A stretch of DNA of 64,000 nucleotides. It comes from Thuidium tamariscinum (lineage: Eukaryota; Streptophyta; Bryopsida; Hypnales; Thuidiaceae). The position numbers and the translations under genes are program-made. Positions 26,310 to 53,566 of this stretch are shown piece by piece. How positions within the stretch are numbered: position 1 is the stretch's first letter; each line of letters starts with the position of its first letter. Where the stretch lies: assembly GCA_947034885.2 (NCBI GenBank), contig OX344751.2, positions 46,529,082-46,593,081 of the forward strand. Direction: 5' to 3'. The notes under the pieces were generated by a model that was not told the origin of the DNA, did no database searches, and saw only the letters and a list, made by a program, of their open reading frames with translations.

Positions 26310-26943
26310 TGTCGTGATGTGGGCCGTCTATTAGGTAAATTTAGGCATCAAAATTTATTCAAGGGAAATTCCACTAGTAGAAAATCTCCCCGGTTCTGTT
26401 GATTTGGTCCTGTTGATCATCAACGCGACCAAATCAACAGAACTGGGGAGATTTTCTACTAGTGTTCCAAGTATTGATGGGTTAGGGTTTTTGGTGGCTA
26501 GTCTCACCGGGAGGTTATGTCTTGGGAGGGTATTTAAAGGGGAGGCTTTCCCCTTGGTTGCTCTCTTGTGTATTCGATTATTTTCCATTACTTGGAGTTG
26601 GAAATTGAGTGATTGTGTTTGGGAGCCATCTTTTTGTTTGAAGTTCTATTTTGTTCTTTTTGTTGATATTGGGTTTATGCTGAAGGTGTGTTCTTCAAGC
26701 TTGAGAGTGTAGTAGGCAAACTCGAGGTGGCTTCGAGTGCTACCATTTCTGTTAGGTTTGAGAATCGAGGGTTGAGGTTTGAGTTGTAGATCTTTTCGTT
26801 TAGACTTTATTCTTTTCGATAAGTGATAGGTTTAGCTTTTGGCTATATAGCTTATTGTTTCTTTTCATTTCTTTTTACTTCATAGACATCTACTACAGCC
26901 AGAAGCCCCGTGCTTTTCCGGATAGACCGCAATTCTTACGACA
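26310..26943 (+). repeat. 5' LTR
   Basis: 634 bp, of which 96 bp are a CACTA foldback plus its duplication. It contains TATTTAAA at 26531-26538, a probable promoter TATA box. Compared with the 3' LTR it lacks a ~37-bp tandem copy near gggtttttggtggc and a 14-bp copy near gaggtttgag, and shows a few point differences. Confidence 0.9.
26372..26464. mobile_element. 93-bp CACTA foldback element inside the 5' LTR
   Basis: Two 38-bp arms (CACTAGTAGAAAATCTCC... ) are inverted copies with one mismatch. TTC flanks both sides (26369-26371 and 26465-26467). The 3' LTR at the matching place reads gggaaattccaagtattg with no insert, which is the empty site and proves the exact borders. CACTA end plus 3-bp duplication assigns the superfamily. 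Confidence 0.9.
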
Positions 26944-28000: not shown

Positions 28001-29326
28001 AACAATATTGTATTTTTCAAAGATGGACGGATTCATTCACGAGGGACAGGATTACCATTGGAGACGAACTTTGGTAAAGGTGGTATGAAGGTGTTAGCCG
28101 AGGGATTAGCAAAAGATCAAGCGAGTGTGAAGGCAGAGTGAAGTACATATGGAGTTGGGCTTGTTCATGATTGTGTAGGTGTGAGTATTGATGGACCGAA
28201 TCATTTCAATGCGGTGTGGACGAGAGCTATGGAACTTGCTGAAGGCAAAGGACTTACAGAAGACAAGTTGTGTTTAGCAGGCAGTTCTATTCGACAAACT
28301 ACGGGGTGGGATGATCCGGTGGACAGCTTATCTGTTCATGCATATATTGCAAGGAACCAACATGAAGCACTAGTAGAAGAGAAGCAGAAGAGAGATGATG
28401 TTGGTGAAGGTACATCGAAGAGGGCCAACAGGACAGAGAGGACACAACAGGCAAAGCCAGGGCCGGATGTTGCAATGAAAGGGAAGGGCAAGGCTGTAGC
28501 TTACAAGCTACAATCGGATATTGAAGCTGCTACGGATTTGAAGAAGGTGTTGGAAGAGCGTATATTGAATGGAAAGGTGGAGTTTACCTTGGGTGAAGTC
28601 CTTGGGATTGCAAAGCGGGAGTTCCATGAGGTTATTATGGACATCATTAAGCGGAAGAGGCACAGTTTGGGAGATGCTACAACTACAGATGCTCAAGGTA
28701 TTAAGGTGGAGGAGGATGAAGAAGATGAAGATGTTATTGACCAAATCTTTGGAGGTGTTGTAAGAATGGTATCAGTTCCAGAGGATGGAGAAATTCGAGC
28801 TTCAAGTCACTATTCTCGAAGTCATTGGGCAAGAGCTACAACAGAGACATTGGTTAAGCTAGGAGATTTAGAAGAACCTGTTGTTGCATTGGTGGATCAT
28901 GGCTCGGAGATCAATCTAATGTCAAAGGGATTATATGAGCAGGGCAAGTGGCCTATTGACACAGACCATGGGTGGCTAATTAGAGCAGCCAACAATACAC
29001 GTGGAGACTTGTATGGAGCTTGTCTAAATGTAAGCGTGGTGATTGGAGATGTGAGGGATGAGCAAAACTTCTTTGTGCAGGTTAATTCTTCTTACCCTGT
29101 CATTCTTGGACAGCCTTACAATACAGCTACACGAATGGAGACAAAGGTTATGGACAATGGTTCAGCATATGCTAGGATTAGAAGTCGGGATGGCAAGCAG
29201 GCTGTACAATTTTTGACTGTCTGTGCGGATCATGAGAGAAACCGTGAGAGTTTGAGGGCTCATCCTTTGCCAAAGGTGAGTAGAGAGTTTGGAAAAGGTT
29301 TTGATTACATGAGGGATTTTCATTAG
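28001..29326 (+). pseudogene. pro: Protease region of the retrotransposon, interrupted by stops
   Basis: The Gag frame continues past the TGA at 28000, meets another TGA at 28139-28141, then stays open to TAG at 29324-29326. The segment 28181-29326 has 381 codons. The active-site loop is VALVDHGSEINLM (catalytic Asp at 28895-28897), with the later ILG (SYPVILGQPYN) of retropepsins. D-H-G replaces the common D-S/T-G. Before it is a Lys/Glu-rich linker with no known domain. The downstream pol frame is shifted and overlaps this one by about 20 nt near 29305-29326. With two internal stops this copy is probably not able to make protease. Confidence 0.8.
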
Positions 29327-29406
29327 ATGCCATTGTAAGGCGGGATTGCAGTGGTGTAGGGGATAGTGGTTCCCCGCAGAGTAGGGAGAGAGATGGAGCT
29401 TCAGGT

Positions 29407-32400
29407 TTGGTTGGGTTATCTCGGGATGGATCTATTTTATACAAAAATACAAAAAAAATAAATAGAGAAGAGAAGAAGTACATTGGGAGTATTGAGAGTG
29501 AGTTGAGGAAAGTAGGGGAACTTGAAGATGATGAGCATATATCAGGGGTATTTGAAGAAACAGGTTTGAGTGATACAATGGGAGAGTTGAGGTTTTTGTT
29601 GGAGACAAGTATTGAGGGTGAGGACAAGATAGTGGGTATGCATTCAAAGGAACTTTATGATGAGGTAGAGCGGTACATTGACGGATATGAGGTGCAAGTT
29701 GATACAAAGTATAAGACTGTTGCAAAGAAGGTTAAGCCAGTAGCAGTGCCGCTACTGTTGGATTGTGAGGAGAAAGTTGAGAGGGCCACAATGCAGCCAA
29801 ACTTAAGGGATCCAAAGAAGATTGGACATGAATTTACAGATATGGCTTTGAGTGGACTTAAAATTGGAAATGAAGATTTTCTAACAAAGGTTGAAGCAAG
29901 AAGTTTTAGAGAGATGTTGATACACCATGGGAGAGCATTTGCATTTGAACCACATGAGATTGGATGCGTTGATCCGGGAGTTGTTGCACCTATGGTCATC
30001 TTTACAGTTCCACATGTACCATGGAATTTGCGACCGATTTCAGTACCAAGAGCGCATTTGCCTCAGTTGATAGAATTGCTTGATGAAAAGATCAGGATGG
30101 GAATATTAGAGCCTTCTATTGCACCGTACTCAAATCGGTGGTTTATAGTTCCTAAGAAGAATGGGAAGCTGAGGTTTATTCAGGACTTGCAACTAGTGAA
30201 TAGGGTGACAATTAGAAACATGGGTTCTAGCCCAATTGTGGATGAATTTGAAGAGGCGTTTGCTGGAAGGGCAATCTATTCAATGGGAGATCTTTACTCA
30301 GGATATGATCAGTTCCAATTGGCTATACACAGCAGAGACTTGACTACATTGAAGACACCATTGGGTTTATTAAGAATGTGTACATTACCTCAAGGGGCAA
30401 CAAATTCTGTTGCACATATGATGAATGCAATGAACAAGGTGCTGAGGGACTTCATTCCTCAAAAGACTATGCCATTTTTGGATGATGTACCTATTAAGGG
30501 ATGTATGGAGGAAGAGAAAGATGAGACATTGGATGGAATGGGGTGTCGAAAGTTTGTTGCTGAGCATATTGAGGATTGTCACAAAATTTTATCAAGACTG
30601 GAGGAGGTTCACTTGACTTTATCGGGGGTGAAGTCAATGTTTGGAGTAAGAGAGGTTTTGGTTGTAGGACACATGTGTGGACCGTATGGACGAAAGCCAT
30701 CAATGGAGAAGGTGGATGCTATTCAAAGAATGAAAGAGTATGAAAATACAACAGAGGTGCGTCGATTTTTAGGAGCATGCATTTTTTATTGCATTTGGAT
30801 TCCACACTATGCACATATAGCAGATCCGTTATATTGTCTATTGAGGAAGGGGCAGAAGTTTCAATGGAGGGAAGAGCAGAGCAATGCAATGAAAAAGTTG
30901 AAAAAACTTCTTTCTTCACCACCTACATTGAAGAAGATAGACTATGACAGTGGAAGGCCAGTGATATTGACAGTGGATGCCAATCCAATTGGAATTGGTT
31001 GGGCAGTTGGTCAAGATGATGAGAATGGTAAAAGATATGTAGTCAGATTTGGAGCAAAGGTTTTAAATTCACGACAACGGGCCTATGCTCAGGTTAAGAG
31101 GGAATTGTGGGGTGTTGTGACTGCTATGAAGAATGAGAAGGATTATTTGATTGGAGCTGAAGTAGTTGTAGAAACAGATTGTCTTCCATTATTGGGGATG
31201 ATTGCCAGTTGTTCTACACCAGACTTAGCTATGTTGAGATGGATTGCCTACAGTAAATCTATGGATCCAGAGTTCAAGCACATTGCAGGGAAGAACAATC
31301 CAGTTGCTGATATGTTGTCACGTGCAAGATATGAAGGTGAAGAGGAGATGGTTGATGAAGATGAAGATGTTGGTACAGATTTTTATTCTACTTCATTGAC
31401 AAGAAAGGAGGGCTTATGTTTGGTCACACCATTGGAGTCGTTTTTAGAAGAATCTTATGAAGGTGAATGGTTGCAAATTGGAAGATATTTGAATACATTA
31501 CAACGCCAACATGGATGGAGTGATGCAGACTTCAAGAGGATTCGACGGAAGGCCTACGGTTACTTTCTCCAGGCTGGAGTTTTATGGAAACATCCAAAGA
31601 AAAGGGGTGGAGTACCTCAACGAGTAGTGGGTCAGTTAGAAGAACAACAAAAGATTATTAGTGAATTTCATGAGAGTAGATGGACGGGACATCGTGGCAT
31701 ATGGGCAACTTTTACCAAGGTCAAAGAGAAGTATTGGTGGAAGGGTATGTACAAGGATGTAGTGAAGTTTGTTGAAGCATGTATAACATGCCAAATGTAT
31801 TCAAACGTACGCCACAGGGACGGATTGCATCCTACATTTCCATTAGCCATCCATTACAAATGGGTGGTTGATTTAGTAGCAATGCCTACGGGAGTTGGAC
31901 AGAAGAAGTATCTGGTGCTTGCTCGTGAGGATTTATCAAATCAAGTGGAAGGACAAGCTTTACGAACCAAAGAGACTGAAGTGGTTTGCCGTTTTCTATT
32001 GGAAGAGGTGATTTGCAGGTATGGCTGTGTGGGAAAAATTACTGCTGATAGAGGGGAGTTGGATGCTAAAGCAGCACCTGATTTTTTTGGCAATTTGGGG
32101 ATCAAGCTTGCATTGACATCAACTTATAATCCAGAAGGCAATGGTAAAAGTGAGCGAGGACATGTGTCAATTGTCAAGGCATTAGTGAAATCTTGTGATG
32201 GTAAATCAAATGATTGGCCAAGATTATTGCCTTTTGCTCTATGGGCTGATCGTACTACCCACAGTTCTGTTACTGGTTATATGCCTTTTGAGTTGATGTA
32301 TGGGCAAAAATCGGTCATGCCAATTGAAGATGTTGTGCCTACATGGAGTGCACTACCATGGGAAGATGGACTTAGTAGAGAGGAGCTTTTAGCATTACGT

Positions 32401-32805
32401 ATTCGTCAACTTGAAAGAAGACCGGAGGACATTGAGAGTGCTGTCACAAAGTTGGAGGCAAGAGAGAAGAACAAAGACAGATTTGACCGCAAGCATCGAT
32501 TGCGTTCTCGACCGATTCAAGATGGTGATTGGGTGTTGGTGTATGACAGCAGCTTAGATAATCAACATAGTACAAAGAAGAAATTTGCCAAGAAGTGGTT
32601 TGGGCCATATGTTGTGAAGCAAGCCTATGATAATGCTACATATTTGTTGAGAGAGTTGGATGGAACAGAGTTGAAGATTCCGATTGCAGGTAAACAAGTT
32701 AAGTTGTTTCGCCGGCGTGGTGAAGACCTCAGATTCGAAGACTTTGATGGAGTTGAAGTTGAAGACAATGAGGATGCGGAGGATGACCAGAGGCTAGAAG
32801 ATTGA
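29407..32805 (+). CDS. pol: Reverse transcriptase-RNase H-integrase polyprotein
   Basis: An open frame of 1132 codons; the same frame is open back to about 29305, so its true N-terminus comes from a frameshift off the protease frame, not from an ATG. Reverse transcriptase has the FLDD box at residues 357-360. RNase H has Asp 524 (TVDANPIGIGW), the YAQVKRELWG segment and VETDCLP. Integrase has an H-x6-H (from 755) and C-x2-C zinc site, then the D-D-E core at Asp 822, Asp 881 and Glu 916. A GPY/F motif (WFGPYVV) lies near 1065. No chromodomain is visible; the end is an acidic tail. It copies element RNA to DNA and inserts it in chromosomes. The long intact frame suggests a fairly young insertion. 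Confidence 0.9.
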   Translation: MVGLSRDGSILYKNTKKINREEKKYIGSIESELRKVGELEDDEHISGVFEETGLSDTMGELRFLLETSIEGEDKIVGMHSKELYDEVERYIDGYEVQVDTKYKTVAKKVKPVAVPLLLDCEEKVERATMQPNLRDPKKIGHEFTDMALSGLKIGNEDFLTKVEARSFREMLIHHGRAFAFEPHEIGCVDPGVVAPMVIFTVPHVPWNLRPISVPRAHLPQLIELLDEKIRMGILEPSIAPYSNRWFIVPKKNGKLRFIQDLQLVNRVTIRNMGSSPIVDEFEEAFAGRAIYSMGDLYSGYDQFQLAIHSRDLTTLKTPLGLLRMCTLPQGATNSVAHMMNAMNKVLRDFIPQKTMPFLDDVPIKGCMEEEKDETLDGMGCRKFVAEHIEDCHKILSRLEEVHLTLSGVKSMFGVREVLVVGHMCGPYGRKPSMEKVDAIQRMKEYENTTEVRRFLGACIFYCIWIPHYAHIADPLYCLLRKGQKFQWREEQSNAMKKLKKLLSSPPTLKKIDYDSGRPVILTVDANPIGIGWAVGQDDENGKRYVVRFGAKVLNSRQRAYAQVKRELWGVVTAMKNEKDYLIGAEVVVETDCLPLLGMIASCSTPDLAMLRWIAYSKSMDPEFKHIAGKNNPVADMLSRARYEGEEEMVDEDEDVGTDFYSTSLTRKEGLCLVTPLESFLEESYEGEWLQIGRYLNTLQRQHGWSDADFKRIRRKAYGYFLQAGVLWKHPKKRGGVPQRVVGQLEEQQKIISEFHESRWTGHRGIWATFTKVKEKYWWKGMYKDVVKFVEACITCQMYSNVRHRDGLHPTFPLAIHYKWVVDLVAMPTGVGQKKYLVLAREDLSNQVEGQALRTKETEVVCRFLLEEVICRYGCVGKITADRGELDAKAAPDFFGNLGIKLALTSTYNPEGNGKSERGHVSIVKALVKSCDGKSNDWPRLLPFALWADRTTHSSVTGYMPFELMYGQKSVMPIEDVVPTWSALPWEDGLSREELLALRIRQLERRPEDIESAVTKLEAREKNKDRFDRKHRLRSRPIQDGDWVLVYDSSLDNQHSTKKKFAKKWFGPYVVKQAYDNATYLLRELDGTELKIPIAGKQVKLFRRRGEDLRFEDFDGVEVEDNEDAEDDQRLED

Positions 32806-32874: not shown

Positions 32875-33186
32875 TGTCGTGATGTGGGCCGTCTATTAGG
32901 TAAATTTAGGCATCAAAATTTATTCAAGGGAAATTCCAAGTATTGATGGGTTAGGGTTTTTGGTGGCTAGTCTTACCGGGAGGTTAGGGTTTTTGGCGGC
33001 TATCTCGCCGGGAGGTTAGGTCTTGGGAGGGTATTTAAAGGGGAGGCTTTCCCCTTGGTTGCTCTCTTGTGTATTCGATTATTTTCCATTACTTGGAGTT
33101 GGAAATTGAGTGATTGTGTTTGGGAGCCATCTTTTTGTTTGAAGTTCTATTTTGTTCTTTTTGTTGATATTGGGTTTATGCTGAGG
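32875..33186 (+). repeat. 3' LTR, first part
   Basis: Matches the 5' LTR from its first base to the word gggtttatgctga, then is cut by the hAT. Here a ~37-bp segment (gggtttttggYggctaKtc...gggaggtta) is present twice in tandem, once in the 5' LTR. Confidence 0.9.
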
Positions 33187-33356
33187 CAGGGTTGTTCTGC
33201 CGGACATTGCGACATCGCGACATCGCGACGTCACGAAACGTCTAGTAGACCCTCCGCGACGTCCATAAAAGTCAAATTTACCTTTGACTTTTTTAAAATT
33301 ACCACGTGGAAAATAATGCCACCTGGATGCCATGTGGCATCCACGTGTTACATTTT

Positions 33357-33417
33357 AGGGCGACCTCGGGTAGGGGCGACCTCGGGTGGGGTGACCTCGG
33401 GTAAGGGCGACCTCTTT
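33357..33417. repeat. Left subterminal repeats of the hAT
   Basis: Four spaced copies of GGGCGACCTC or a one-base variant, mostly followed by GGGTA/GGGTG. They are the complement of the motif found near the right end and in the internal array at 38.7-39.7 kb. Confidence 0.75.
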
Positions 33418-33479
33418 CTTTTTTCTTTTTTTCTTTTTTCTTTTTTAAGATTTCTATTCCCAGTGTTAGATTCTTGAAT

Positions 33480-34560
33480 AAGATTTGATGTTGCTTTACA
33501 GTCTTTTGTTGCTTACAAAGAAAGGATAATTTTGTGACGATGGACTTTTACACCCGAGAAGGAATGGATCTGATTTCCATATCTTGTATGCATGCCTATG
33601 CACTTAGTGATTTGGAACAATCCAGTCAAAATCACATAAGTTAGAATAAAGACATTATTTTGTGGCATATTTTAGCCCTTATGACGTTACATTCCTTTGA
33701 CTAGCAGTTACAAGTACTATTTCGGAACATTTCAATCACTTACAAGGAAAAAAGTAAAGGCATTTGAGATATATTTAACCTTGCTGACTCAATAGCCTGG
33801 TCTCAACTTTACTGCAAAGCCAGAACAATGAGTTCAAATTTACATGAACCATTGACAAAAAATCAATAAAAGCTGTATGAGGTTTTTTTTAAAATTAACA
33901 GATTCACAGCAAAACGGATTGATTCTACACAGAGATTACAGTAAGTGATTTAAACAATCCACCTGTATTAAAGGGAATCCAGCCTTGACCGAATTGGAAT
34001 AAGGGACCTTTATAATGTCCACATGCCGGATGGGATGACCACCTGGCTCTCACGCTGGTTGGACTTTTTTGGAACGAGGACTAAGCAAGTGAGCTGGACC
34101 CACCAGAACCGGTCGTTCCAACTGCCTCGCTATTTCTGGCTCCGTTCAGACTCGAAGTGATCCAGCTCCTTTGCAAACCAGTTGGCAACGAAGGAGAAGC
34201 TTTTTTTATTCCTGGATATTGAGTTGAGACACTGTTCCAAGGCTTGTTGCAGTTTCGTATGCAGCAGGATTCAACATGACGTCGTCACAACGTGTTAGCA
34301 ACAACCAGGTTCAGGAGTAGTGCCTACTGTGGATGTCATACAATGTGGAATTTCTTGTTGTTGAATGTTTAATTTGTTCCCTGTGAAAGCTATAACATGC
34401 GTTGTGGTCTGTTGACACCCGTTGCACCTCACTAACACTACATTGGATTGTTTTTGTTCTTGGGATGGGCACAGGTGAGGACCACATCCTCTTGGAGCAT
34501 TCTAAACGTTTTTTGGCAAACCACAACTTCCACATAGATACTTGATGGGTTAAATCTAAG
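33480..34560. other. Unique GC-neutral segment within the hAT, possible captured host DNA
   Basis: About 1 kb without repeat vocabulary, higher in GC than its surroundings and with gene-like words around 34020-34320. No domain-bearing frame: the 74-codon reverse frame at 34311-34535 is not recognisable. It resembles a promoter or 5' region of a host gene picked up by the transposon. This is inference from composition only. Confidence 0.35.
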
Positions 34561-35218
34561 TTCTTTGGATGTTTTGAAATACTTTAGGCAAATTTGAGTT
34601 TAGACATATGGATACCTTGTAGTCTCTATGTCTCAAAAGGAAAAAAATAGGGTGCTAATTTAGTGCCTAGGGCTGAAATACTAAATGCTTCAAAAAAATA
34701 GGGTACTTTTTTTGAGCCTAAGTTTACTTACACTTGTCTCAAAATTTACCACTATAGAGGATAAAGCTAAGTTTTTTATGACTAAAAAATATAGTACATA
34801 TTGAGGATCAAAGTAGGCAAAATTGATTTTCTACTGTTGTCTTTCTAGAAAATAGCAACTAACAAATATCTCACTACATGGAGGAGAAAGTATTTTGGCA
34901 AATATAGGACTTTATCAAAGTAGCTCTAAACTGCATTCCTATTGATAGGAAATTGATACCACTTCTAGAAACAAAAAAACATGCTACTGGTGACAAATAG
35001 AATCACGCCTTCTAGTAAGGATGTTCCAGATACAGAACTTTTTTTTTTTTGGTTAACATATGGAGAAATTCCATTGCAAAAAAAAGGGGGCAACCTCTTC
35101 TATTGCAAATTACATTTGTTACACTTCTCTAAAAATACAAAAAAGTGGATGTAACAATAAAATCTTCTACTTCACTTGTCTAAAATCATGTGGTAAAATT
35201 TTCATGAGGTATGACCAT
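34561..35218. other. Non-coding interval inside the hAT
   Basis: AT-rich, with words such as atagggtactttttttgagcc. No gene or defined element. Confidence 0.35.
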
Positions 35219-35222
35219 ATAA

Positions 35223-35939
35223 AGGCAATTGCATGAAAGACTTGTACTATTTTTCATCACATGTCTCATGTTGATCTATTTTTTGACCATAACTTTTGTA
35301 TTTTTGCTCCAAATGACTCAAGATTTCTAGAAAAGGTACTCATAACTATCATATAGCTTACATGAATTTTTGATAATTTTCAAAAATATTTAATATAAAA
35401 ATAATACTAGTGATTGAATGTCACATATGACAATTTGGAAGTTCTTAGTACTATGGAATACCTTTTTTTAATGATTTTGAGATGAAATTTGGATGAGATG
35501 GTCTTCTAATAGACTTCTAGTTTTACACACAAGGATTTTTAAAAATAGTTAATTTTATGTCATGTGGAGGTCTATAAAGAGAGCTTCATTTTGCTTGTAT
35601 TTTGAAACATATAAAATATTATTTTGGTAGATTTTTAACCGAATGACCATCTCCATAAAATTGTTGCAAATGGCCACTTTTTTATTTTTTGTATTTACTT
35701 ATTCTTACTATTTTTCCCTAATTAAAACATGAAGGTACCTATTTTCTTAAGGTTTGGCACTTTTCCAGTTCTCCTACTTAGAAAATTTTCCTATACAATT
35801 CCTTTTGTAGGTACCTTTGTCTTAAAGGTATATTTTTTTAATTTAAAAATTATTTTTCTAATTAAATAGTACTCCAAAAAAAGTCAGAAGTACTATTGCA
35901 AAACGCAACAAATAGTACAAGTCTTTCATGCAATCACCC
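35223..35939 (+). mobile_element. 4-bp-TSD MITE, subfamily III (copy H)
   Basis: 717 bp, ending TTTCATGCAATCACCC. The left terminus is mutated to AGGCAATTGCATGAAAG. Flanks ATAA and ACAA differ by one base. The interior matches copies G, I and J (actcaagatttctag, agttctcctacttagaaa). It lies inside the hAT, so it inserted later than the hAT was assembled. Confidence 0.75.
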
Positions 35940-35942
35940 ACA

Positions 35943-38720
35943 AATTAGAAGATATTTGCATTCAAAGTTGGAAAAATAAAATTTTGAATGTTGGCCTACA
36001 ATTTCAATGACTTTGACCACTATTTGTGGAAAATTTATGCACTATAGACTTTGTTTTTTATGTTGAATTACTCCTAAGAGCCCAAGGGGTTAGGACAAAA
36101 TACAAATGTGATAAAATACAATTTCTATAATTTTTTTGAAGTTAGCATCAAAGAAGATTATGTAAAGCACAAAAAATAGAAAGTATCTATATAGGTACAG
36201 TTATAAAGTTGTTTTTAGATTATCTTCAAATGAATTTTGAAGATATAACTTCAAAAAAATCACCAAAAATACAATTTTCATCTTAAATAGCACTTGAAGT
36301 TTTATTTGAATTAGTCAAAACTATGATTTCTATTGATTTGTGAAAAAATGAAAAAGATCTAGTAATGAGAGCATCAACACTTTTTCCAAATATTAAGTTT
36401 TTCAACACTATGCAATTATAAACACTTCATGATATTTTTCTAATAATTTCTTTTTGGCCATATTGATCTTAATTAGTTTTGAATGTAAATGTTGAAAGAC
36501 AATCTATTTTTTTTAAAGTGAAGCAAAAAGAAATTATGCCCAAAAATTATACCCAAAGTAAGGCAACAACCAAAAATGGTTGCTTGAGTACTTAGGGGTT
36601 AATAAATTGTTAGGTAGAAATAGGTTGAACAAGAAAATAAATTATTAATAGTTCTAAGATGTAATTGAAACATGTAAATTCTAATTGTGTGATTCTTCTA
36701 GGAAGAAAATTTAACCTTGAAAAACAATTTTTTAGAAAATTTGTGAAAATTGCATTCAAAATGAAATCTAATATGTTATTTTTTCAAGAAGTTTCTATAA
36801 TTGCTCAATAAACAAGATTGTCTATAATTTTTTATGTTTAGTCTAAATACAATTAATCATAGCTTTAGACAAGTGGATTTTTGATCCCTTACAAGTTATA
36901 TTTTAATTTCATTTTTGCAAATTTTTTCACATAATAATTTAGAAATGAACAAATGAGATTAAATTTTATGACAAAAATTACAAAAATTTGCACAAGAAAA
37001 TTCAAATTTGAGATTCTATACATAGACCTCAACACCTTATCACCTTGCATATAGGATATTCAATATTCTTTTTTAAATGGCACATCATAAAAGAACAAGT
37101 TAATTTATTTACATTACTTTTTGAAATTTAGAGGCATGCAATGTGGCTTAAGAATTTATGCTAGTATAATAATATCATGTCTTATTACAAAACAATGGAT
37201 GGAGGAAACTACTTTCAAGGGCTTCATCAACCATGGTTTATCCATAACCAAGTTCACCAACTATCTACTTGCCAATTGCTTCTTTAGATCAATACACTCA
37301 ACTTCTTCATTAATTGATGCATTTTCAGAAACTTCACTATTGTATTTTTTCCATATTATTAATTCATTTTCATTAATTTGGCAAATTTTCTAATAAAATA
37401 CAAAATAGATTCCATTGTGTATTTATACTTTTCTTGCATTCTTACTATACTCTTCTTTAAATGTTGTCACCTATTCACAGAGAATAATTCTAGAGTCATC
37501 TACCAATAGTTCTTCAACTTTCTTTCCATAATAAGATATTTGGAATGAATCTTGGGGGATAAAAAAATAATATCAAGGTACATAAAGTCAACCCACATAG
37601 TTCCCTAATGCATCTTTTTTTTAGGGCTTCTTTTAGTCATTCTTAAATGACATTAAAAGTTTTAACTAGACAACCAGATTGTTTATTTTTAATGCATAAT
37701 TACAAGAAAGAGCTTGCAAACCATAATAAAGATTTTAGAACTATATAGAGGGACAATTTGAAGAACAAGGGCAATTTTAGAACACTTGAGTTCTTAATCC
37801 CTAAAGGACCAAGGCCATTTTTCTACAAAAAAAATACTTAAACTCTCATTTTTATAGCAAAGAGAAGAAAAATTTGAAAATTATTTTTTTCGGCATCTAA
37901 CCTTAGATTCTTATACCTAACTAGTACAAAATTTCGTGGATATCCTTTTTAATAATTGTAAATATTGCATTTAGATATGAATTCAATAAATTATTTTTCA
38001 AGACAATGATTCAATTGTCCAAGAAACAAGATTGTTCATAACTTTCTCAAAATAAATCCAAATGTATCAAAACTTTTCATGTAGGCAAAAATATAATCTA
38101 TGAGAAAAAAATAAAAAATAAAACTTTGATTTTAAAAATTGTTGTGGGCTACTCCTCTCTGTTGTTTTGAGTTTATTTAGGCATAACTTTTTATCTTGGA
38201 TACTAATTGAAAAAATATAAATTCATATGAAGCTAATCAATTTTTCTATCTTCAAAAAAAAATCCAATAATCAAGACAAAAATTAAGACAATAGGTACCC
38301 ATATAAAATCTCATTTGTTCCCTAATTCCCTAAAGGCACAATGGTTCTTCAAGCATTACAAACCCTAGAAATCAAGAACTCCTAAAATACATTCCTAGAG
38401 AAAAATATCAAGGCATTAAGCTCTCCAAACTCAATCGAAGAAACAAAGAGGAGGTAAGCAATAAATATTTTTCAATAACTTAGAAAATAACTATTTCTAG
38501 GGTCTCCAGAGTCTGTGATGATATGAGAACCCTCGGACAAAAAATAATAATAAATAATTCTTCAAGTAGAATTGAAAAAAAGTTAAGAAATTCAAAACCT
38601 CGTTTTAATGGCCAAAAAATTTCGAAATAAAAGAAACTCATCCAAAAGCAAGGTAATAGCTCACACACCAATTACAATCGCCTTAGACAAACATTCTCCT
38701 ATAAAATTATGTTTTAAACC
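35943..38720. other. Non-coding interval inside the hAT
   Basis: Holds isolated piggyBac-type termini: TACTTAGGGG before TTAA at 36599-36602, and TCCCTAAAGGACCAAGG after TTAA at 37794-37797. They point away from each other and no partners were found, so they are probably remnants. The 90-codon frame at 37121-37393 has no domain. Confidence 0.4.
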
Positions 38721-38724
38721 CGTG

Positions 38725-39720
38725 TTCCCATACAAGTGATCACCCTAGACCCGCGTTCTCCTTCAAAGAGGTCCCCAAGATCCAAAATGGCCCCAAAATT
38801 GCAAAAAATTGAAAATTTGGGGGCAAACAATTCCCACCTCCTTAAGAGGTCGCCCTACACCCGTGTTCTCCTACAAGAAGTCGCCCTAGACCCGCATTCT
38901 CCTTTAAAGAGATCCCCAAGACTCAAAATGGCCCCAAAATTGCAAAAAATTGAAATTTTGGGGGCAAACAACTCCCACCTCTTTAAGAGGTCACCCTAAC
39001 AGCGCGTTCTCCTTAAGAGGCCGCCCAACACCCGCGTTCTCCTACGCGAGGTCGCCCTAGACCCGCATTCTCCTTCAAAGAGGTCCCCAAGACCCAAAAT
39101 GGCCCCAAAATTGCAAAAAATTGAAATTTTGAGGGCAAACAACTCCCACCTCCTTAAGAGATCGCCCTAACAGTTCGTTCTCCTTAAGAGGTCGCCCTAG
39201 ACCCCCTAAAAGAAGTCGCCCCAAGACCCGAAGTCGCCCCAAAATGGCCCAAAATGGCCCAAAAATGGCTTTTTTTGAACTTGGACAAGGGAATGGCTCC
39301 CACCTCCACCCGCGGTCGCCCTCCACCCGCGTTCTCCTACCTTCGGTCGCCCCACACCCGCGGTCGCCCACAAGAGGTCGCCCTTAGACTCGAAGTAGCC
39401 CCACACGAGGTAGCCCTAGACCCGCATTCTCCTTCAAAGAAGTCCCGAAGACCCAAAATGACCCCAAAATTGCAAAAAATTGAAATTTTAGGGGCAAACA
39501 ACTCCCACCTCCTTAAGAGGTCGCCCTAACAGCGCGTTGTCCTTAAGAGGTCGCCCTACACCCGCGTTCTCCTACAAGAGGTCGCCCTAGATCCGCATTC
39601 TCCTTTAAAGAGGTCCCCAAGACCCAAAATACCAAAAAAATTGCAAAAAATTGAAAATTTGGGGACAACGGCTCTATCTTCCCTATGCGGTGACTCTAAA
39701 CCAGTATTCGTCTATAAGAG
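38725..39720. repeat. GC-rich tandem array built on GAGGTCGCCC
   Basis: Repeats of a composite unit: a short GC-rich part (GAGGTCGCCCTA, ACCCGCGTTCTCC) and an AT-rich part (ccaaaatggccccaaaattg, then ttgcaaaaaattgaaa). The word ccccaagac or variant occurs near 38773, 38914, 39085, 39444 and 39615, giving spacings of 141 to 171 bp and one double step. It uses the same 10-bp motif as both ends of the enclosing hAT. Open frames across it, such as 38736-38999, are repeat artefacts. Confidence 0.75.
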
Positions 39721-40184
39721 GTTGTAGAGAAGTGATTGCCTATGAGACATAGAGTATGGCATTTTTTTTAAATTGGAGGGAAGAGTAGTGAAGTTGATTA
39801 TGATGAGTTACACTTGCATCAATTTTTGAACATATTAATGTACATTTTATATTTGGTGAGCTAAGACAATGTTTATGTTTGAGATTAGACTTCAATGGAT
39901 AGATGTCTTATATCATTTGCTAAATATTAAAGCTCTTCTCAAAATTTGTTTATCTTGAATTATCTATAGTAAAGCTTTAATTTTTGTATGTCTATTTTAA
40001 TCTATGAATTTTTTCTACTTTATAATTGAAGTGATAAGGTCAAAAATTTCAATGAGCATTCAACTTTTGTATAGAGGGGAATTTATTATTGTATGGATGT
40101 TTTTGTAAATGGAATTGTAATTTTTTGTATATTGATTTATTAAATGGGGAACAATTTACAATTTTACATAGATCTTTATTTATT

Positions 40185-41735
40185 ATTTATTATTTTGAAG
40201 TTCAATTCATAAATAAGTCATTATTAAAATGACTCATTGACATTTACATAAATTAAAAGGAGAAGTTATCATTTAAATTTCATCCTTCTAATTCTAAAAT
40301 TGTAGATTGAGGTAATAAAAAATACTTGAGTAGAATGATGCTTAAAGAATGGAGAATTCTAATGAATATATTCTTATATACTTGAGTCTCCATCTATTAT
40401 ATTGTATACTAGAATTTATTTGATATTTTTTTTTGGTAGGATAATTCTTTGACATTTTTGTAAATCAAAAAGAAAATGTTTTCATTTAAATATCTTTCCA
40501 CTAATTTTTAGAATTGACATGAAGGTGGTGACCTAATAAAATATGAGTACGGTGATACTTTGGAAATAGAAAAACTCAAATGGGCAAGTTGTTATTGAAA
40601 TCTCTATCCACTATTTTGAGTTCTAAAGTTTGCTTGATAAATAATTTACCAAAAATATGAGCCTTCAAATAAAAGTTGCATAAATCTAAAAGAGAAGTTT
40701 CATTTTTTAATCTGTTCCTTCTAATTTTAAAGATGAGAGTAAGGTTGTATTTAAATAAGACATAGGTATTATGATGCTTGAAAATTGAAAAAAGTTGAAT
40801 AGGCAAATTGTTAATAAAGTCTCCATCCACTATTTTGAGTTCTAAAATCTATTTGATAAAATAATTCACCATGAGGATGAGCCTTCAAAATAAAGTTGTA
40901 TATCAAAAAGAAAACTTATTTCACTTATACCTCTTCCTTCTAATTTTTAAGATGAAATCAAAGTGGTGCCTAAATAAGACATGACTATGATGATGGTTCA
41001 AAGATAGGAAAAATTGAAATAGGCAAATTGTTATTAAAGTCTCCATCCACTATTTTGAATTCTAAAATTTTCTTGATAAATAATTTGCCATTAGGATGAG
41101 CCTTCAAATAACATTTGTATAAATCAAAAGAAGAAGTTTTTATTTAAACCTCTTCTTTTTTTCTTTTTTCTTTATTGTTGAAGGTGAAAATTGATAAATA
41201 GTACATAAATATAATGATGCTTGGAAAATAGAGAATTTCAAATGGAGAAGATCGTTCACAAATATCCATGCATTATTTTTTATTCTAAAATTCACTTAAT
41301 GAATATTACACCATAATGATGGCTTTAAGATTTGATTCGATCAAAAGGGGAAGTTTTCATTTAAATCTCTTCCCTTTAGTTTTTAAATTTTTGGTAAAGG
41401 TAATGAAGAATACATGAATATGTTGATGCTTGGAAAATAAAAAAATTCAAACAAAGAAATTCTTAATTATACAAAATTCAAATCATTATTTTGTATCCTA
41501 AAATCCACTTTATAAATGTTACACCATTAAAATGACTATGAATTTTATATAAAATTAGAAGATAAGTTCTAAGTTAAAATAATCTCTTCCCTCTAGTCTT
41601 AAAATTTTTGGTGAAGGTGGTAAATAATACATGAATATAATGATGCTTGAAAAATAGAGAAATTAAAATGATGAAGTTCTTACACAAATATCCATTCATT
41701 TTTTTGTATATTGAAATCTAATTATTCAATAATAC
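40185..41735. repeat. Degenerate ~218-bp tandem repeat, about seven copies
   Basis: The marker gatgcttggaaaatagaRaa or close variants recurs near 40334, 40553, 40770, 40993, 41215, 41423 and 41642, spacing 208-223 bp. Each unit also has a catccactatttt word, a gataaataattcacca word and a tttaaatctcttccctc word. A stray copy lies at about 42835-43045. Non-coding. Confidence 0.7.
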
Positions 41736-42046
41736 AACATCTTGAAGGGCACTCCCAATTCTTTAACTATAATGTGCAATCAAATGAAGTGTGGTTTTAA
41801 TTCTCTTGGCCTAAATTTTAGACAATTTTTAGATGTAAACTAGCATTACTAAAATGGGATATTACTCATTATAAATAATGAAGGATAGGAAATAATACAC
41901 AACTTTACCTTCTTCTTCTTTTTCTAAAGTTGGGTTGCCAAAAAGAATCTCCAAAAATCTAAACTATTATGTAGTAAACAAAGTTTGAAATTAAGAATCC
42001 TATGAACTAAATTTTATGAGAGCATGAGCTCTATATATAAATGAGA

Positions 42047-42194
42047 GTGACAAATAATGGGTGACAACTAATGGGTGACAACTAATGGTAACAACTAATG
42101 GGTGACAACTAATGGTGACAACTAATGCATGACAACTAATGGTAACAACTAATGGTGACAACTAATGCATGACAACTAATGGTGACAACTAATG
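42047..42194. repeat. Minisatellite, unit ~13-14 bp
   Basis: About ten copies of acaactaatggKtg with small changes (gcatg, ggtaac variants) in a row. Confidence 0.85.
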
Positions 42195-44350
42195 GTTGTG
42201 CTCTTATAAGTATTCACACTTTGAATGTGTTTGAATGCAATTGTTGAATGGAAGTATTGCTTATCTAGTCTTTTTTAAATGTATCACATGTTTAGTCAAA
42301 GTTTTAATAAGAAATAAGGCCTTATTTCTTATATTGAGACAAAGTATAGTCTCAATTTTATCTTAGAGTCGAAGATAAATGGTTATAACTTTATAATTTT
42401 GAGTCTATTTGATAATTTGAGACTTTAATACAATAATACATGTAAAAACCTTTAATTGTCCAAAGGTTGCAATCTCATCTTATCGTCAATTCAATGATAA
42501 ATGACTAAGTTTTTTTTAGGGTAAAGTCTCAAAATATGTAAATTGTCTCATTTTAATGAATAAGGCCTTAAATCCTCTTCTCTTTGTGTTTGCAAGAAAA
42601 ATGGAATTCTTTTCTATGTATAATGAACATAGGGTGATAGGGTATAATTAATTAGCACCCCAAAAAATTCCAAAATAAAGATAGGGTGATTGAAATGACT
42701 TGACTTTAGAAATTTACGTAAAGATGTCCCTATTTTAATTCATCAAATGTACCTACATAGCCCTCATCTTTTAGGGGCTTGAATGCACATGATGTCCTAA
42801 CATATTACATAGTGCACCCCTTCAGTACAACATTAGGATGATTCTTTGACTTTTACGTAACTCACAAAGAGAAGTTTTAATTCAAATCTATTTCTTCTAA
42901 TTTTTAAATTTTAGGTGAAGATGCTAACTTGCTAAGAAATATAAGAATATGATGATCCTTGAAGATTAGAAAAAATCAAATGGGGATGATTTTAAAAAAA
43001 ATCACAATCCATAATTTTATATTTCAAAATCTTCTTGATAAGTAATACATGAGTAGATTGTAATCTCCTAAAGTTTCATTGTCTCTACAAGGGGTCAAAA
43101 TGGATTTTGAACAAGTTCCTATAAGGTCAATTTTTTATGGAACTTTTTGAAACACTTTTATAAGATAGAAAATCTTATTAGCTTTTTAGAAATGTAGTTT
43201 TATTTGAATTAGTGCCTAAAGGCAAGAGTCATATCAAAATAAGTTTAGATCTAAATTATGTAGGTAAAAAAAAATTCACAAAAGTTTAAAAATGTTTTTT
43301 TCTTATAGATTGTAATTTTGTCTACTTAGAACTTTGATTCATTTTATTTAGATTGATGATGTGAAGATTATGAAGCATTTTATTTTGCAGTCAATAATTA
43401 AAAGATTTTGAAATTGTTTGACATAGGATTCATTTTTTACTTCAATTTTAATTCTTTTTTAAACAAATAGTTTTGTAGTATTAACTTTGATTATTAGAAC
43501 AATCTCACTATTAGAACTAGTATTTCTAATTCCACCTTAGAGCTATTCATGATTTATTTTTTCCTCTATGATGTACCTTCTACTAAAAATTTAAAATAAA
43601 ATGAAATTTACATTATTTTTTTTATAGTTATTTTTCCTATATTTTCAATTTAGTTTTGAAGAATAATTTTTTTAAAGTCAAGATCTAAAGTGAAATTTTT
43701 TTTAAGTTAAGAAATCAAATCTCTTAAGCTAAAGTAGACTAGGCTATTTTCATTTGAAACTCCATTCTACCAAGTAGACCAGTTTGTTTTTGTCACTCTA
43801 GTTTTGGCCCCATTTCTACCTAAAAAAACCCCAATTCCCTTCACTCTATGACAAAATCAAGGATTTTATGACAAATTGGAGTAATGTGTTTCTATTTAAA
43901 TAGAGAACATCTAGTTGTTGATTAGGTGGTTATAGGATGTTTATAAGTTGTTTATGACCTTAGCCTAGAGGTGGTTTTGTAATTTAAAATTGTCCACTTC
44001 AAAAATTTACAGAAATTACAGTTTTGATTGAAAAATTATGATTCCATTTGGATTTGATTGAAAAAACATGTGCACACTTTAAAGAAATATGTGACCCTCT
44101 TAGAATTGGCTCCAATATAGCTAGATTTTAAATAGGCATGTCTACCTTAATTTGCCATTGTCCCCTCCCAAATGATTTCTTTACTTTGAAGTTTGAATGC
44201 AATTATCTTGCAATTTATGTGGTGAAAATTTTTGAAATTTTTTTCACATATTCTCATACTATAATGTTAGAAGATCCTACCATTACATACGCAAAAAATT
44301 ACCATTTCTAATTTTTTTTGTTTTTTGCACTAAAAATGGCAGTTTTGAGT
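42195..44350. other. AT-rich non-coding interval inside the hAT
   Basis: Apart from the stray 218-bp unit at 42835-43045, no repeat or gene is recognisable. Confidence 0.35.
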
Positions 44351-44369
44351 GTTTTTTTGAAAATTCCAA

Positions 44370-44510
44370 CAAAGAGGTCGCCCACCCGCGGTTGCCCCTA
44401 CACCCGAGGTCGCCCTCCCGCAGTCACCCCTTGATAAGAGGTCGCCTTGAAAACTACATACGCGGTCGCCCTATCTTGATGCGTAGTCGCCCCACCCGTA
44501 GTCGCCCTGC
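44370..44510. repeat. Right subterminal repeats of the hAT
   Basis: Seven or so copies of GAGGTCGCCC or variants (GCGGTCGCCC, GTAGTCGCCC) separated by 5-25 bp, in the orientation opposite to those at 33357-33417. Symmetrical subterminal clusters are usual binding sites for hAT transposases. Confidence 0.75.
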
Positions 44511-44703
44511 CTCGCTTTCCACGTCAGCGTGGACAGCCTGCCACGTAGGCAGAAACTTCTTACTTCGCGGTAAAAAATTTTACCCTTGCGCGACGGGACG
44601 GGACGGGGTAGCGACAGGTTGTCTTATACGACACGCAACATCGGACGTTGTACACGACGCCGAAACCCAAAAATATGTCTAACAGAACAACCCTGTGCTG
44701 AGG

Positions 44704-44976
44704 GTGTGTTCTTCAAGCTTGAGAGTGTAGTAGGCAAACTCGAGGTGGCTTCAAGTGCTACCATTTCTGTTAGGTTTGAGAATCGAGGGTTGAGGTTTGA
44801 GGTTGTGAGGTTTGAGTTGTAGATCTTTTCGTTTAGACTTTATTCTTTTCGATAAGTGATAGGTTTAGCTTTTGGCTATATAGCTTATTGTTTCTTTTCA
44901 TTTCTTTTTACTTCATAGACATCTACTACAGCCAGAAGCCCCGTGCTTTTCCGGATAGACCGCAATTCTTACGACA
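44704..44976 (+). repeat. 3' LTR, second part
   Basis: Continues the 3' LTR after the hAT and its second TGCTGAGG (44696-44703). It matches the 5' LTR from about 26661 to its end at ACGACA. A 14-bp tandem copy (gttgtgaggtttga) is present here but not in the 5' LTR. Confidence 0.9.
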
Positions 44977-46093
44977 ACGTGGTCACAATCCAATTTCACC
45001 TATGATCCAGAGCCGAGAACATTTGAAGGTGCATGGGGTCCTACAACATTTTTTTGCATGATGCCTACATTTATGCAATTGTTTACATTGTTTTGGCCAA
45101 ACACTGTATTGCGGAAAATAGTGATAGAGACTAATCGTTATGGGACTACACCGGATGAGCATGGAAAAACAAGGGGGGGGAGAAGGATGGTTGCCTATTA
45201 CAATTCAAACTTTGAAGGCCTATTTAATTAGCGTCTCGTATCTATAGAGGGTTGAAGAAGCAATCAAACATGAAGACATATTGGAGCAAAGAAGGCTCTT
45301 TTTTCCATTGTCCTCGGATTTTCAAAATTGTATCTAGGTTGAGGTTCACAGAGATCACAAGATGCTTTCATGTCACGAATCCTTCAAACTATGTTGGGCA
45401 AAGAGATATGCCCGGTTATGACAAGATGGGGCAAGTGCGGTGGCTTGCAAATGGAATTAAGGATAGTTTCAAGCGCGAGTGGTCTTTGGGGAAGTACCTT
45501 ACAATGGATGAGATGATGATACGGTACAAGGGTTCCTATTGCCCTGCTAGGCAATATATGCCTAAGAAGCCATTGAAATGGGGCATAAAGGTTTGGTGCT
45601 TGGCAGATTCAGTATCAAAATATGTGTACAATTTTGAAATCTATTGTGGGGCACTGGGGCCAACCATGAAGGAGTACAGGAAATACCAGGTGTGGTTCAT
45701 GGAGAGGCTAATGTGGCACACAACGTTGTGATGAGATTGTTGTATGGCGAAGGGAGAAAGGGACATGTTGTTGTCATAGACAACTATTTCTCTAGCGTTG
45801 GATTATTTACAGAGTTGGCTACACAAGAAATTTATGCCATGGGGACAGTGAGGTCTAATCGTGTGGGCCTACCAACCGAATTGAAAGTGGTTCAAAACTG
45901 GAGCAATTCACCTCAAGGCACATTACAATGGACAATGCACGAATCTCGTGGCATTGCATGCGTAATGTGGAAGGACAAATGCCTAGTGCTCCTCTTATCT
46001 ACAAATTCATTGCCTATTGGCTTTCTATATGTGCCTGTACCAACGGTTCCACGCAGAAATGGGGCAACAAGGGACCCAACCCAGACTTCTCCT
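44977..46093 (+). pseudogene. piggyBac transposase, main part of the DDE domain
   Basis: Matches the DDE_Tnp_1_7 fold: an N-terminal part (FEGAWGPTTFF, IVIETNRYG), then YWSKEGSFFHCPR and RCFHVTNPSN. The first catalytic Asp is in LTMDEMMIRYKG (Asp codon 45507-45509) and the second in VVIDNYFSSVGLF (45779-45781). It would cut and paste piggyBac DNA at TTAA. It is broken: frame changes lie near the G-run at 45172-45179, near 45230-45245 and near 45645. The retrotransposon splits it upstream, and a MITE cuts it at 46093. It is not functional here, but the residues are preserved. Confidence 0.85.
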
Positions 46094-46826
46094 GGGTGAA
46101 TGCAAGAAACACTTGTACTATTTTCCGTCACAAGCTAAGTACTGATCTGTTTTTTGGCCATAACTTTTGCATTTTTTCTTGAAATGACTCAAGATTTCTA
46201 GAGAATGTACTCATGTCTATCATACACCTTACATAGTTTTTTCTTAATTTTCAAAAATATTTTAATACTAAAATAGTACTAGTGATTAAATGTCACAAAT
46301 GACAATTTGGAGGTTTTTAGTACTAAGGAATACCTTTTTTTTAATGATTTTGAGATGAAATTTGGATGAGATGGTCTTCTACTAAATTTACATCTCTCCA
46401 AGTGAGGTATTTTGAAAAAGGTTATTTTTATGTGGTGTGGAAGTCTACAAAGTGAGTTTCTTTCTGCTTGAATTTTGAAACATATAAAATATCATTTTGG
46501 TGGTTTTTTTAGTGAATGACCATGTCCATAGAATTGTTTCAAATGTACACTTTTTATTTTTGTATTTATTTATTTTTACTATTTTTCCCGAATTAAAACA
46601 TGAAGGTATGTATTTTCTCGAGGTTTGGCGCTTTTTAATTTCTCCTACTTAGAGAATTTTTCTATCAATTTTCTTCAGTGAAAACCTTCATCTTAGAGGT
46701 CTATACATTGTTCAAATTTTTCAAATTTTTTTCAAATTTTTTTTCTAATTTTAAAGTACTCCAATAAAAGTCATGAGTACTGTAGTAAAACGCAACAAAT
46801 AGTACAAGTGTTTCTTGCATTCACCC
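46094..46826 (+). mobile_element. 4-bp-TSD MITE, subfamily III (copy I), inside the transposase
   Basis: 733 bp from GGGTGAATGCAAGAAACAC to GTTTCTTGCATTCACCC. TCCT flanks both ends (46090-46093 and 46827-46830). Removing it and one TCCT rejoins the piggyBac coding frame, giving clear proof of the borders and of the 4-bp duplication. Confidence 0.9.
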
Positions 46827-50221: not shown

Positions 50222-50266
50222 AATGTCATTTATGCAATGACCCTCTCTAATGTAATAACCTCTCTA

Positions 50267-51245: not shown

Positions 51246-51249
51246 TCTA

Positions 51250-53040: not shown

Positions 53041-53566
53041 GTCCGAGCATCCTCCTCGGGATGGATGAATTCCGACCACGGAACGAATGCGGACGTTCAT
53101 CCGCCAGCAGCGTGCTTTCAGGGGCCAAAGCCAGAGAGAGAGAGACACTCACAGAAAGAGACTGTCGTCAGGAGAACGTCGATGCAGCTGATGAGTGCGC
53201 ATCCCAGGCATCTGTCTGTTTTCTGCTCGTCGCCATCTTCACCATCCTCGCCATCCTCGCCCGCGCTTGCTGGCCACAGCCATCGCTCATCGCACCTCGC
53301 TCTGGCGCTGCTCGTCTTGGCGTAGTCCTTTTCGGGATGCGTTTTGGATTTGAATTGCGCCTCGTGGCTTGATTGGAGGGGTCGCTTGGCGTTTGTCGGG
53401 TCGGCTTGCTTCATGTTGGCCTTTCGGAGCGTTGGCGTGCGGCGGAGGATGCGGTGGAAGGTGGCGTGAAGCATCGGCGGTGGCCTGGCGACATCGGGAT
53501 TCGGAATTGTGGGCGGGGAGACGCGCGCAGGGGTTAGGGTTAGGGGCGGGGCCGGGTTCGATCGAG

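Follow-up and report, generated by a model that had tools for sequence, protein, structure and literature searches.

The 11.5-kb element at 33187-44695 of the window, by which we mean the whole 64,000-nucleotide stretch of Thuidium tamariscinum DNA that was analysed (contig OX344751.2, positions 46,529,082 to 46,593,081), is a genuine, recently moved transposon and belongs to a family of similar ~9-14 kb copies. The family is young and multi-copy, is without recognisable transposase and shares its ends with a larger relative. We consider it probable that this is a large noncoding cut-and-paste family of ~11 kb that is mobilised whole in trans, with a ~29-kb class as the likely enzyme source.

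A complete transposon inside an LTR

The bounds of the window element rest on an exact pair of terminal inverted repeats (TIRs), a target duplication and an empty site (Table 1). The first-pass annotation had proposed exact hAT-like ends with a perfect 8-bp duplication; both are present (13/13 for the TIRs and 8/8 for the duplication), which supports its description of a complete, exactly bounded 11.5-kb TIR element within an LTR. At up to 2 mismatches, the TIR had no site in the window beyond the element's own two ends; a shuffle control expects 1.6 matches at this setting, so lone matches would mean little.

Also as proposed, the empty site is found in the other LTR of the surrounding Ty3-type retrotransposon, with one base differing from the duplication. 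When one duplication copy is removed from the element's flanks, their alignment runs through the 5' LTR. The host LTRs show 5 differences over 530 compared sites, and the integrase core match in the host pol ORF scores below its cut-off. As a separate observation, we read a RanBPM-like gene as plant-like in character; its PDB matches are mostly animal and yeast proteins.

Table 1 Coordinates (window positions) of the element, its parts and its host retrotransposon.
Feature	Position	Strand	Remarks
5' LTR of host Ty3-type retrotransposon	26310..26943	+	supplies empty site TGCTGAAG at 26678-26685
pol ORF of host Ty3-type retrotransposon	29305..32805	+	RT, RNase H, integrase H2C2
3' LTR of host Ty3-type retrotransposon, left part	32875..33186	+	
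8-bp target duplication TGCTGAGG, left copy	33179..33186	.	exact, 8/8
Left terminal inverted repeat CAGGGTTGTTCTG	33187..33199	+	exact; TIR search of window
Left subterminal region	33200..33355	+	end-probe matches among genome loci
Left subterminal array, GAGGTCGCCC-type motif on minus strand	33356..33414	-	
Foreign 1.6-kb insert in T-tract	33419..35048	-	absent from 18/21 copies
Core A of family, AT-rich	35039..38686	+	most frames without sign of coding
TIR-bearing MITE-like repeat in core	35230..35939	.	same place in the 21 copies
Central motif array, right-end orientation	38717..39668	+	15/24 window motif matches
Core B of family	39686..42086	+	contains 217-219 bp tandem repeats, 40461-41682
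13-14 bp minisatellite	42047..42196	+	
Right subterminal motif array	44374..44473	+	
Right subterminal region	44474..44682	+	common to coding relatives
Right terminal inverted repeat CAGAACAACCCTG	44683..44695	-	exact; TIR search of window
8-bp target duplication TGCTGAGG, right copy	44696..44703	.	exact, 8/8
3' LTR, right part	44696..44976	+	starts with second duplication copy

A young family of large copies

Searching the 363-Mb genome with the left-end pattern returned 198 occurrences against 0 for the reversed control, and the best 40 of 485 candidate loci found with a left-end probe, the window's own included, match at 80-100% identity. These left ends, together with further copies that have the same ends, refute the idea that the window element is a one-off. 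The genome search for other copies, suggested in the first-pass annotation, thus succeeded: 18 of the 20 other copies read have a perfect 8-bp duplication and match each end within one mismatch. These 18 bounded copies are 9.5-14.4 kb long, and two of them have identical duplications, as if a single insertion had been copied. The duplication is mismatched (7/8) in one of the remaining two, and the right end was not found in the other. Because 18 of 20 other loci have the same structure with their own duplications, misassembly of 33187-44695 is very unlikely.

The best-40 lists of left and right ends combine into 30 correctly oriented pairs, among them the window copy, that span 9.3-18.5 kb; a further left-right pair spans 29.4 kb. 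Across 21 copies, core A has a mean pairwise divergence of 1.0%, and 12 of the 21 lie within 0.33% of the majority base.

Coding content of the 11-kb class

The element had been described as having no recognisable transposase, and neither its 42 ORFs of 50 aa or longer (Pfam) nor its 126 ORFs of 32-49 aa matched a transposase family at E up to 1. For the other 20 copies, the transposase test was tblastn alone, using the longest ORF from each of 8 local hAT loci, not all of which are transposase frames; there was no match in any of the 21 copies. A recognisable hAT gene inside the window element is rejected by the ORF scans and tblastn together. The family therefore shows what is expected of non-autonomous elements, with several copies, the same ends, own duplications and no recognised transposase (by Pfam, on the window copy only).

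A hidden protein in the core is likewise unsupported. The reference copy L024 has 18 frames of 60 aa or longer. In 7 of these no changes could be counted; among the other 11, N is larger than S in 10. The exception, a 63-aa minus-strand frame (L024 3793-3981; N 16, S 27) that may be coding, is intact in 19/20, and inherited changes enter its counts repeatedly.

Motif arrays at the ends and centre

The internal arrays noted in the first-pass annotation are real. For the GAGGTCGCCC-type motif, 23 of 24 window matches fall inside the element, where 1.2 are expected in the entire window. The arrays also recur in other copies, as that annotation had asked: motif clusters occupy both ends and the centre in 20 of 21 copies, the remaining one being L013, whose right end was not found. 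Since the arrays hold these positions, and since the length of the central array (0.8-9.2 kb among the 21 copies) differs even between nearly identical elements, their role is testable. We take the subterminal arrays to resemble the transposase-binding repeats of Ac.

In the movement we propose, a transposase made elsewhere would move the 11-kb element as a whole, by cut-and-paste in trans. It would recognise the 13-bp ends with the adjoining ~230-250 bp, including the GAGGTCGCCC-type arrays, which may bind it, and would come from the ~29-kb class, which has the same ends and begins with a long ORF.

The MITE-like repeat in the core, relatives of which also lie elsewhere in the window, predates the family's spread, because it sits at the same position in the 21 copies. 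An Rfam scan of the window gave no match at the gathering threshold, and an ARAGORN run found none.

A larger coding relative (~29 kb)

Among the 100 left ends listed, 36 run into a long ORF that lies 583-973 bp inside, giving 35 distinct ORFs; the commonest open form is 829 aa (ORF search, best 75 of 1220 candidates scored). Seven of the best 40 right-end matches lie 28.8-36.3 kb from the start of the long ORF. Candidate elements of this class span, among others, G000:C4:30354814-30384245, C2:523552-553152 and C6:1899395-1929006. The parts of the class that have been read are one left end (L050) and one right end (L051), 2.5 kb each, from two different copies. In L050, a TATA-like box and then the long ORF come after the left end; the end itself is 84-88% identical to the 11-kb copies in 16 of the 20 matches listed and 95-97% identical over 35-145 bases in the other 4.

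No transposase was seen in the two 2.5-kb end pieces. Pfam gives nothing significant for the known part of the long ORF (the best match, at E 0.016, falls below the cut-off), and a PDB search with a 580-aa part of it found nothing at E up to 1. Nevertheless, this coding relative may supply the enzyme that moves the 11-kb copies.

A body common to the two classes was not found in the parts read. Every one of the 118 pieces of L050 that match the 11-kb copies lies within the first 354 bases. In L051, 46 pieces match; they lie at the right end and arrays, except for 3 whose counterparts are private segments of copies L013 and L027. Because the parts read share only ends and motif arrays, apart from this L013/L027 repeat, the data do not establish that the 11-kb copies arose from the 29-kb class by internal deletion.

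hAT or another superfamily

The CAGGG-type ends, which we take to be hAT-like, and the duplication fit the original label 'hAT-type'; against the label, no hAT domain was found in the element, and Zisupton shares the duplication length. In the excerpted text of PMC10741241, short TIRs and 8-bp duplications are hAT traits. The duplication here is 8/8 in the window and perfect in 18 of 20 other copies, and the 13-bp TIRs fall within the 5-27 bp of hAT elements (13/13 in the window, at most one mismatch per end in the 18 copies). The same excerpt gives hAT elements as typically <5 kb, a usual trait rather than a strict criterion; the window element is 11.5 kb and the 18 copies 9.5-14.4 kb.

We give about an even chance to an ordinary hAT origin, in which the transposase would sit in the 29-kb class, in a third class that shares these ends or in separate hAT elements, all of these being oversized hAT derivatives. 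This overlaps with movement in trans as we propose it, naming the enzyme rather than a different movement. Besides the ends and duplications, many matches to PF05699 (best 150 of 714 candidates scored) and PF04937 (best 150 of 547) lie in long open ORFs of the genome, and 3 of the 100 left ends listed have a same-strand hAT gene inside them, at distances of 13.3, 14.1 and 14.6 kb. When left ends were placed at random, such neighbours averaged 0.11 and reached at least 3 in 1 of 500 trials; the distance range was picked after seeing the data. However, opposite-strand hAT genes near left ends are enriched too (2 lie 12-16 kb away, and the 4 found at 0-30 kb equal the 4 on the same strand), as nested repeats would give. 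Only 3 of the 75 best ORF loci of the 29-kb class have a listed PF05699 match no more than 35 kb away, each at its own distance, although weaker matches could be missed, and the 8 hAT-locus ORFs match none of the 21 copies. The candidates for the autonomous hAT copy sought by the first-pass annotation are these three left ends with a hAT gene inside (C2:829229+, C6:12022886+ and C10:24177464-); in the 29-kb class, listed hAT genes do not recur at a constant position. A third, hAT-bearing class of this kind may be the real enzyme source.

Alternatively, the ends and duplication could belong to a superfamily other than hAT, either Zisupton/KDZ or an undescribed one, with the 29-kb element as its giant autonomous member. 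We regard this as unlikely. Zisupton, like the family here, makes 8-bp duplications according to the excerpted text of PMC12730594, the read part of the first ORF in the ~29-kb coding class has no significant Pfam match, and no listed hAT domain stands at a fixed offset in that class. Yet the three left ends that have a hAT gene 13-15 kb further in lean toward hAT, and PF18758 (KDZ) finds no match in the genome, though 14 control genomes are equally silent. PF14372 gave no match either, with controls silent too, and viral contigs scanned for two patterns yielded no match.

A tentative extension, which we consider rather unlikely, is a giant, recently active cut-and-paste system. It would comprise a ~29-kb coding element with CAGGG ends and an unclassified first-gene protein (commonly 829 aa), perhaps of an undescribed superfamily or of a hAT lineage carrying additional genes, and an 11-kb noncoding family sharing only ends and arrays with it, the central array acting in transposition or as a transposase decoy. 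A 'hAT' label given from ends alone may mask other superfamilies.

Comparison with known elements

Plant non-autonomous hATs (Ds-like elements and hAT MITEs) resemble the family described here in their 8-bp duplications, short CAGGG-type TIRs, lack of a recognised transposase and apparent movement in trans. The family differs in its bounded copies of 9.5-14.4 kb, its largely uniform noncoding body and its central motif array. Because cut-and-paste efficiency is generally thought to drop with length, an 11-kb noncoding family with dozens of near-identical copies offers a natural case for asking what allows long elements to move.

Large CACTA elements, which have subterminal repeats, are of similar size, whereas the ends here are CAGGG and the duplications 8 bp. 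The excerpt of PMC10741241 describes CACTA elements as >10 kb, some >20 kb, with CACTA/CACTG ends and 3-bp duplications. The Hatvine-6 elements of grapevine are unusually long hATs with variable non-transposase sequence, according to the excerpt of PMC2528002; they have a transposase in common and differ elsewhere through transduplication, whereas here no transposase is recognised and the body is mostly constant. The fungal ToxhAT (14 kbp, with cargo), in the description available, is of comparable size as a large hAT-type element but bears a host gene; no cargo gene was identified in the element here.

Cargo and the foreign insert

The suggestion that the element is a carrier gathering other DNA is mostly unsupported: the body is fixed in the family, the core is ~1% diverged and 15 of 21 copies (L024 included) have no private segment, defined as at least 150 bp missing from the reference copy L024. 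Private segments occur in the other 6, the window copy with its one 1.6-kb insert among them. In three of the 21 copies the T-tract contains an insert of 1.5-1.8 kb, the inserts of the 2 other copies being diverged relatives of the window's (33419-35048), and 3 more copies have other private segments. Such segments are what favours a reading in which the 11-kb body is captured host cargo, as in Pack-TYPE elements, which we consider highly improbable given the copies that have none.

The best Pfam match among ORFs of the insert is zf-DNL (E 0.0084, below cut-off), the best PDB match of its 68-aa ORF has an E of 2.4, and Rfam over the insert gave one match, at chance level. Plus-strand folding of its conserved patch is no better than shuffles (z -0.06), and the minus-strand signal against shuffles is weak (z -1.68). 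A 98% identical copy of the insert lies in unrelated flanks (G000:C8:6268480-6270073), and the insert has an A-rich tail on the minus strand. These sequence features suggest that it is a retroposon and fit a later insertion rather than capture.

A large noncoding transposon family and its giant coding relative

The 11.5-kb element of the window is one copy of a noncoding family that is large and young and has a giant coding relative, a finding of real interest to transposon specialists; the first-pass annotation, which described a transposase-free, hAT-type element, is correct in its observation and understated. As claimed there, the element is exactly bounded inside an LTR, here the 3′ LTR of a retrotransposon: its terminal inverted repeats match at 13 of 13 positions and the 8 bp on either side are the same. 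No further inverted-repeat site occurs elsewhere in the window at ≤2 mismatches, with 1.6 matches expected from shuffles. The other LTR does supply the empty site, since the flanks, fused minus one duplication copy, align through the 5′ LTR, where TGCTGAAG differs by one base from TGCTGAGG. The host is a Ty3-type retrotransposon (RT, RNase H and integrase zinc-binding domains). A comparison of its LTRs over 530 sites, with 16 gap columns and the region of a 93-bp foldback insert and of a short tandem duplication set aside, shows 5 differences; the element insertion is therefore younger than ~1% LTR divergence.

Across the genome (363.2 Mb, 19 contigs), we scored the best 40 of 485 candidates for the left 234 bases and the best 40 of 408 for the right 323 bases. 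The two lists gave at least 31 left–right pairs in correct orientation, 30 of which, the window copy among them, span 9.3–18.5 kb and one 29.4 kb. Other copies thus exist, and among the 20 best other left-end loci, each read in two pieces, 18 have ≤1 mismatch at each end, their own perfect 8-bp duplication and a size of 9.5–14.4 kb. Two of these 18 (L014 and L017) carry an identical target duplication sequence and are probably a single insertion that was copied. Of the remaining copies, L015 (18.5 kb) has mismatched flanks, that is, no matching target duplications, and no right end of L013 was found within 14.4 kb. With ≤3 mismatches allowed, a left-end pattern of 34 defined bases matched 198 genome places; its reverse matched 0.

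The family body is fixed and young. In the two core blocks aligned for all 21 copies, pairs differ on average by 1.0% (core A) and 1.2% (core B), and 12 of the 21 lie ≤0.33% from the majority base in core A. Indels comprise a deletion (L026) and an insertion (L027) in core A and an insertion (L013) in core B. The idea of a carrier that gathers other DNA proved mostly wrong: 14 of the 20 copies compared with reference copy L024 lack any private segment ≥150 bp, and the six that have such segments are the window copy, L009, L013, L019, L027 and L028.

Coding content of the 11-kb elements

The reported absence of a transposase was borne out for any recognisable one. No transposase family was found to E = 1 by Pfam among 42 stop-to-stop ORFs of ≥50 aa and 126 of 32–49 aa in the window copy; the top hits were scattered and weak, zf-DNL among them (E 0.0084, under its cut-off). 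The other 20 copies were checked by tblastn alone: eight queries, each the longest ORF at one hAT locus and some of them not transposase frames, had no match at E ≤1 in the 21 copies. Of 11 frames in which changes could be counted, 10 have N above S, as expected without coding; one small frame is the exception. Where some copies have longer frames, these are mostly located over the central array or the right end.

A coding relative of about 29 kb

L050, a left end from a more diverged class, leads into motif arrays of both orientations, with a TATA-like box and a long ORF further in. The 580 aa read from this ORF gave nothing significant in Pfam (best E 0.016, below cut-off) and no PDB match at E ≤1. 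Among the best 75 of 1220 candidates in a protein search with it, 13 ORF loci are open for exactly 829 aa and their match contains no stop; the L050 copy itself has a 600-aa frame, and in a few other copies the frame reaches 845–854 aa. The ORF begins 583–973 bp inside the left end at 6 of 40 probe matches and at 36 of 100 listed pattern places (35 distinct ORFs). Right-end matches lie 28.8–29.2 kb from the start of the ORF match in 5 of 40 listed cases and 36.0–36.3 kb in 2 of 40; one complete left–right pair measures 29,432 bp. The 118 pieces that L050 has in common with the 11-kb copies all fall within its first 354 bases, and those of L051, a right end from a different copy, comprise the right end and arrays, except for three matching private segments of L013 and L027.

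Superfamily and source of the enzyme

The ends and 8-bp duplication fit the hAT label, which is plausible but unproven; Zisupton, too, generates target duplications of 8 bp (PMC12730594). KDZ and hAT-like RNase-H models had no genome match, their controls being equally silent. hAT genes are abundant genome-wide (best 150 of 714 listed for PF05699, best 150 of 547 for PF04937). No listed PF05699 match (best 150 of 714) lies inside the 31 pairs; of the 75 ORF loci, only 3 have such a match within 35 kb, each at a different distance. Open DUF659-type hAT ORFs, commonly of 1061 aa, are numerous in the genome, beside other hAT ORFs of up to ~1240 aa; together they look like a separate, recently active population.

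The single most likely ordinary answer is that a hAT gene sits in the largely unread interior of the 29-kb class or in a third class with the same ends, or acts from elsewhere. Relative to the 100 listed left ends, listed hAT matches are spread over −28 to +36 kb on both strands, and, counting against our main reading, a same-strand hAT gene lies 13.3, 14.1 and 14.6 kb inside three of them, so a third, hAT-bearing class is possible; random left ends have a mean of 0.11 such genes, with ≥3 in 1 of 500 trials. However, that distance range was set after the data were seen, and opposite-strand genes are likewise in excess (within 30 kb inside left ends, 4 on each strand).

With its bounded insertion, many copies, recent spread and lack of a recognisable transposase, the 11-kb element shares its ends with the 29-kb class. 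It would move by cut-and-paste in trans, through an enzyme that would recognise the inverted repeats and subterminal arrays and would most likely be supplied by the 29-kb class.

Motif arrays

GAGGTCGCCCTA has 24 window matches at ≤2 mismatches (1.2 expected), 23 inside the element: 4 at the left end (minus), 15 in the centre (plus) and 4 at the right end (plus). Counted as a 10-base motif at ≤1 mismatch, the 21 copies carry 4–13 near the left end, 10–213 in the middle and 4–26 in the last 1.6 kb (0 in L013, where the right end was not found). The internal array is shared: every copy read (21 of 21) has a central array of this motif in right-end orientation. Its length ranges over 0.8–9.2 kb, and the arrays therefore change faster than the core. 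L015, with L035 (C9:1003900–1023730), has a central array grown to 9.2 kb with 213 motif matches. The arrays resemble the subterminal transposase-binding repeats of Ac and would be bound by transposase.

The 1.6-kb insert and other features

Of the 21 copies, 18 lack the 1.6-kb insert of the window copy and have a T-tract that links left array to core; diverged relatives occupy the same place in L009 and L019. The segment recurs 98% identical at C8:6268480–6270073 between unrelated flanks. Its minus strand terminates in an A-rich tail, consistent with a retroposon that landed in the T-tract; no clear target duplication around the insert was established. A search with the insert (best 40 of 85 candidates) gave 39 further match rows that cover just ~100–430 bp of it, mostly 120–270; one is the L009 insert and two lie close together on contig C5. 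A patch of the window insert is kept at ~37 other genome places, mostly over 120–270 bp, the surroundings not. By eye, its helix arms read GTGGTC/GACCAC in the window and GTGACAGTC/GACTGTCAC in L019, which would suggest a compensatory change; single-sequence folding of the patch was unconvincing (z −0.06 plus strand, −1.68 minus strand).

Coordinates of features in the window
Feature	Positions	Remarks
93-bp foldback element	26372-26464	In 5′ LTR, missing from 3′ LTR
Empty site	26678-26685	In 5′ LTR
Second ORF of host retrotransposon	28142-29323	DUF4100 match, E 1.7e-07
Element	33187-44695	
1.6-kb insert	33419-35048	
Patch of insert	34265-34534	
Core A	35039-38686	
Central array	38717-39668	
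Core B	39686-42086	
piggyBac-type transposase fragment	45228-45728	Just right of 3′ LTR; DDE_Tnp_1_7, E 6.8e-27
Repeat family, ~700-1000 bp, GGGTGA-type ends	21098-21816, 35230-35939, 46094-46826, 50258-51247, 57880-58624	
RanBPM-like protein, SPRY + CTLH domains	53544-55121	Long intronless reading frame

The foldback matches its own reverse complement at 86 of 93 positions, has CACTAGTAG ends with TTC on either side and looks like a CACTA-type MITE. The host retrotransposon may have landed within or next to a piggyBac element. Some GGGTGA-end repeats show 4-bp duplications by eye, and the RanBPM-like frame is GC-rich within an AT-rich region.
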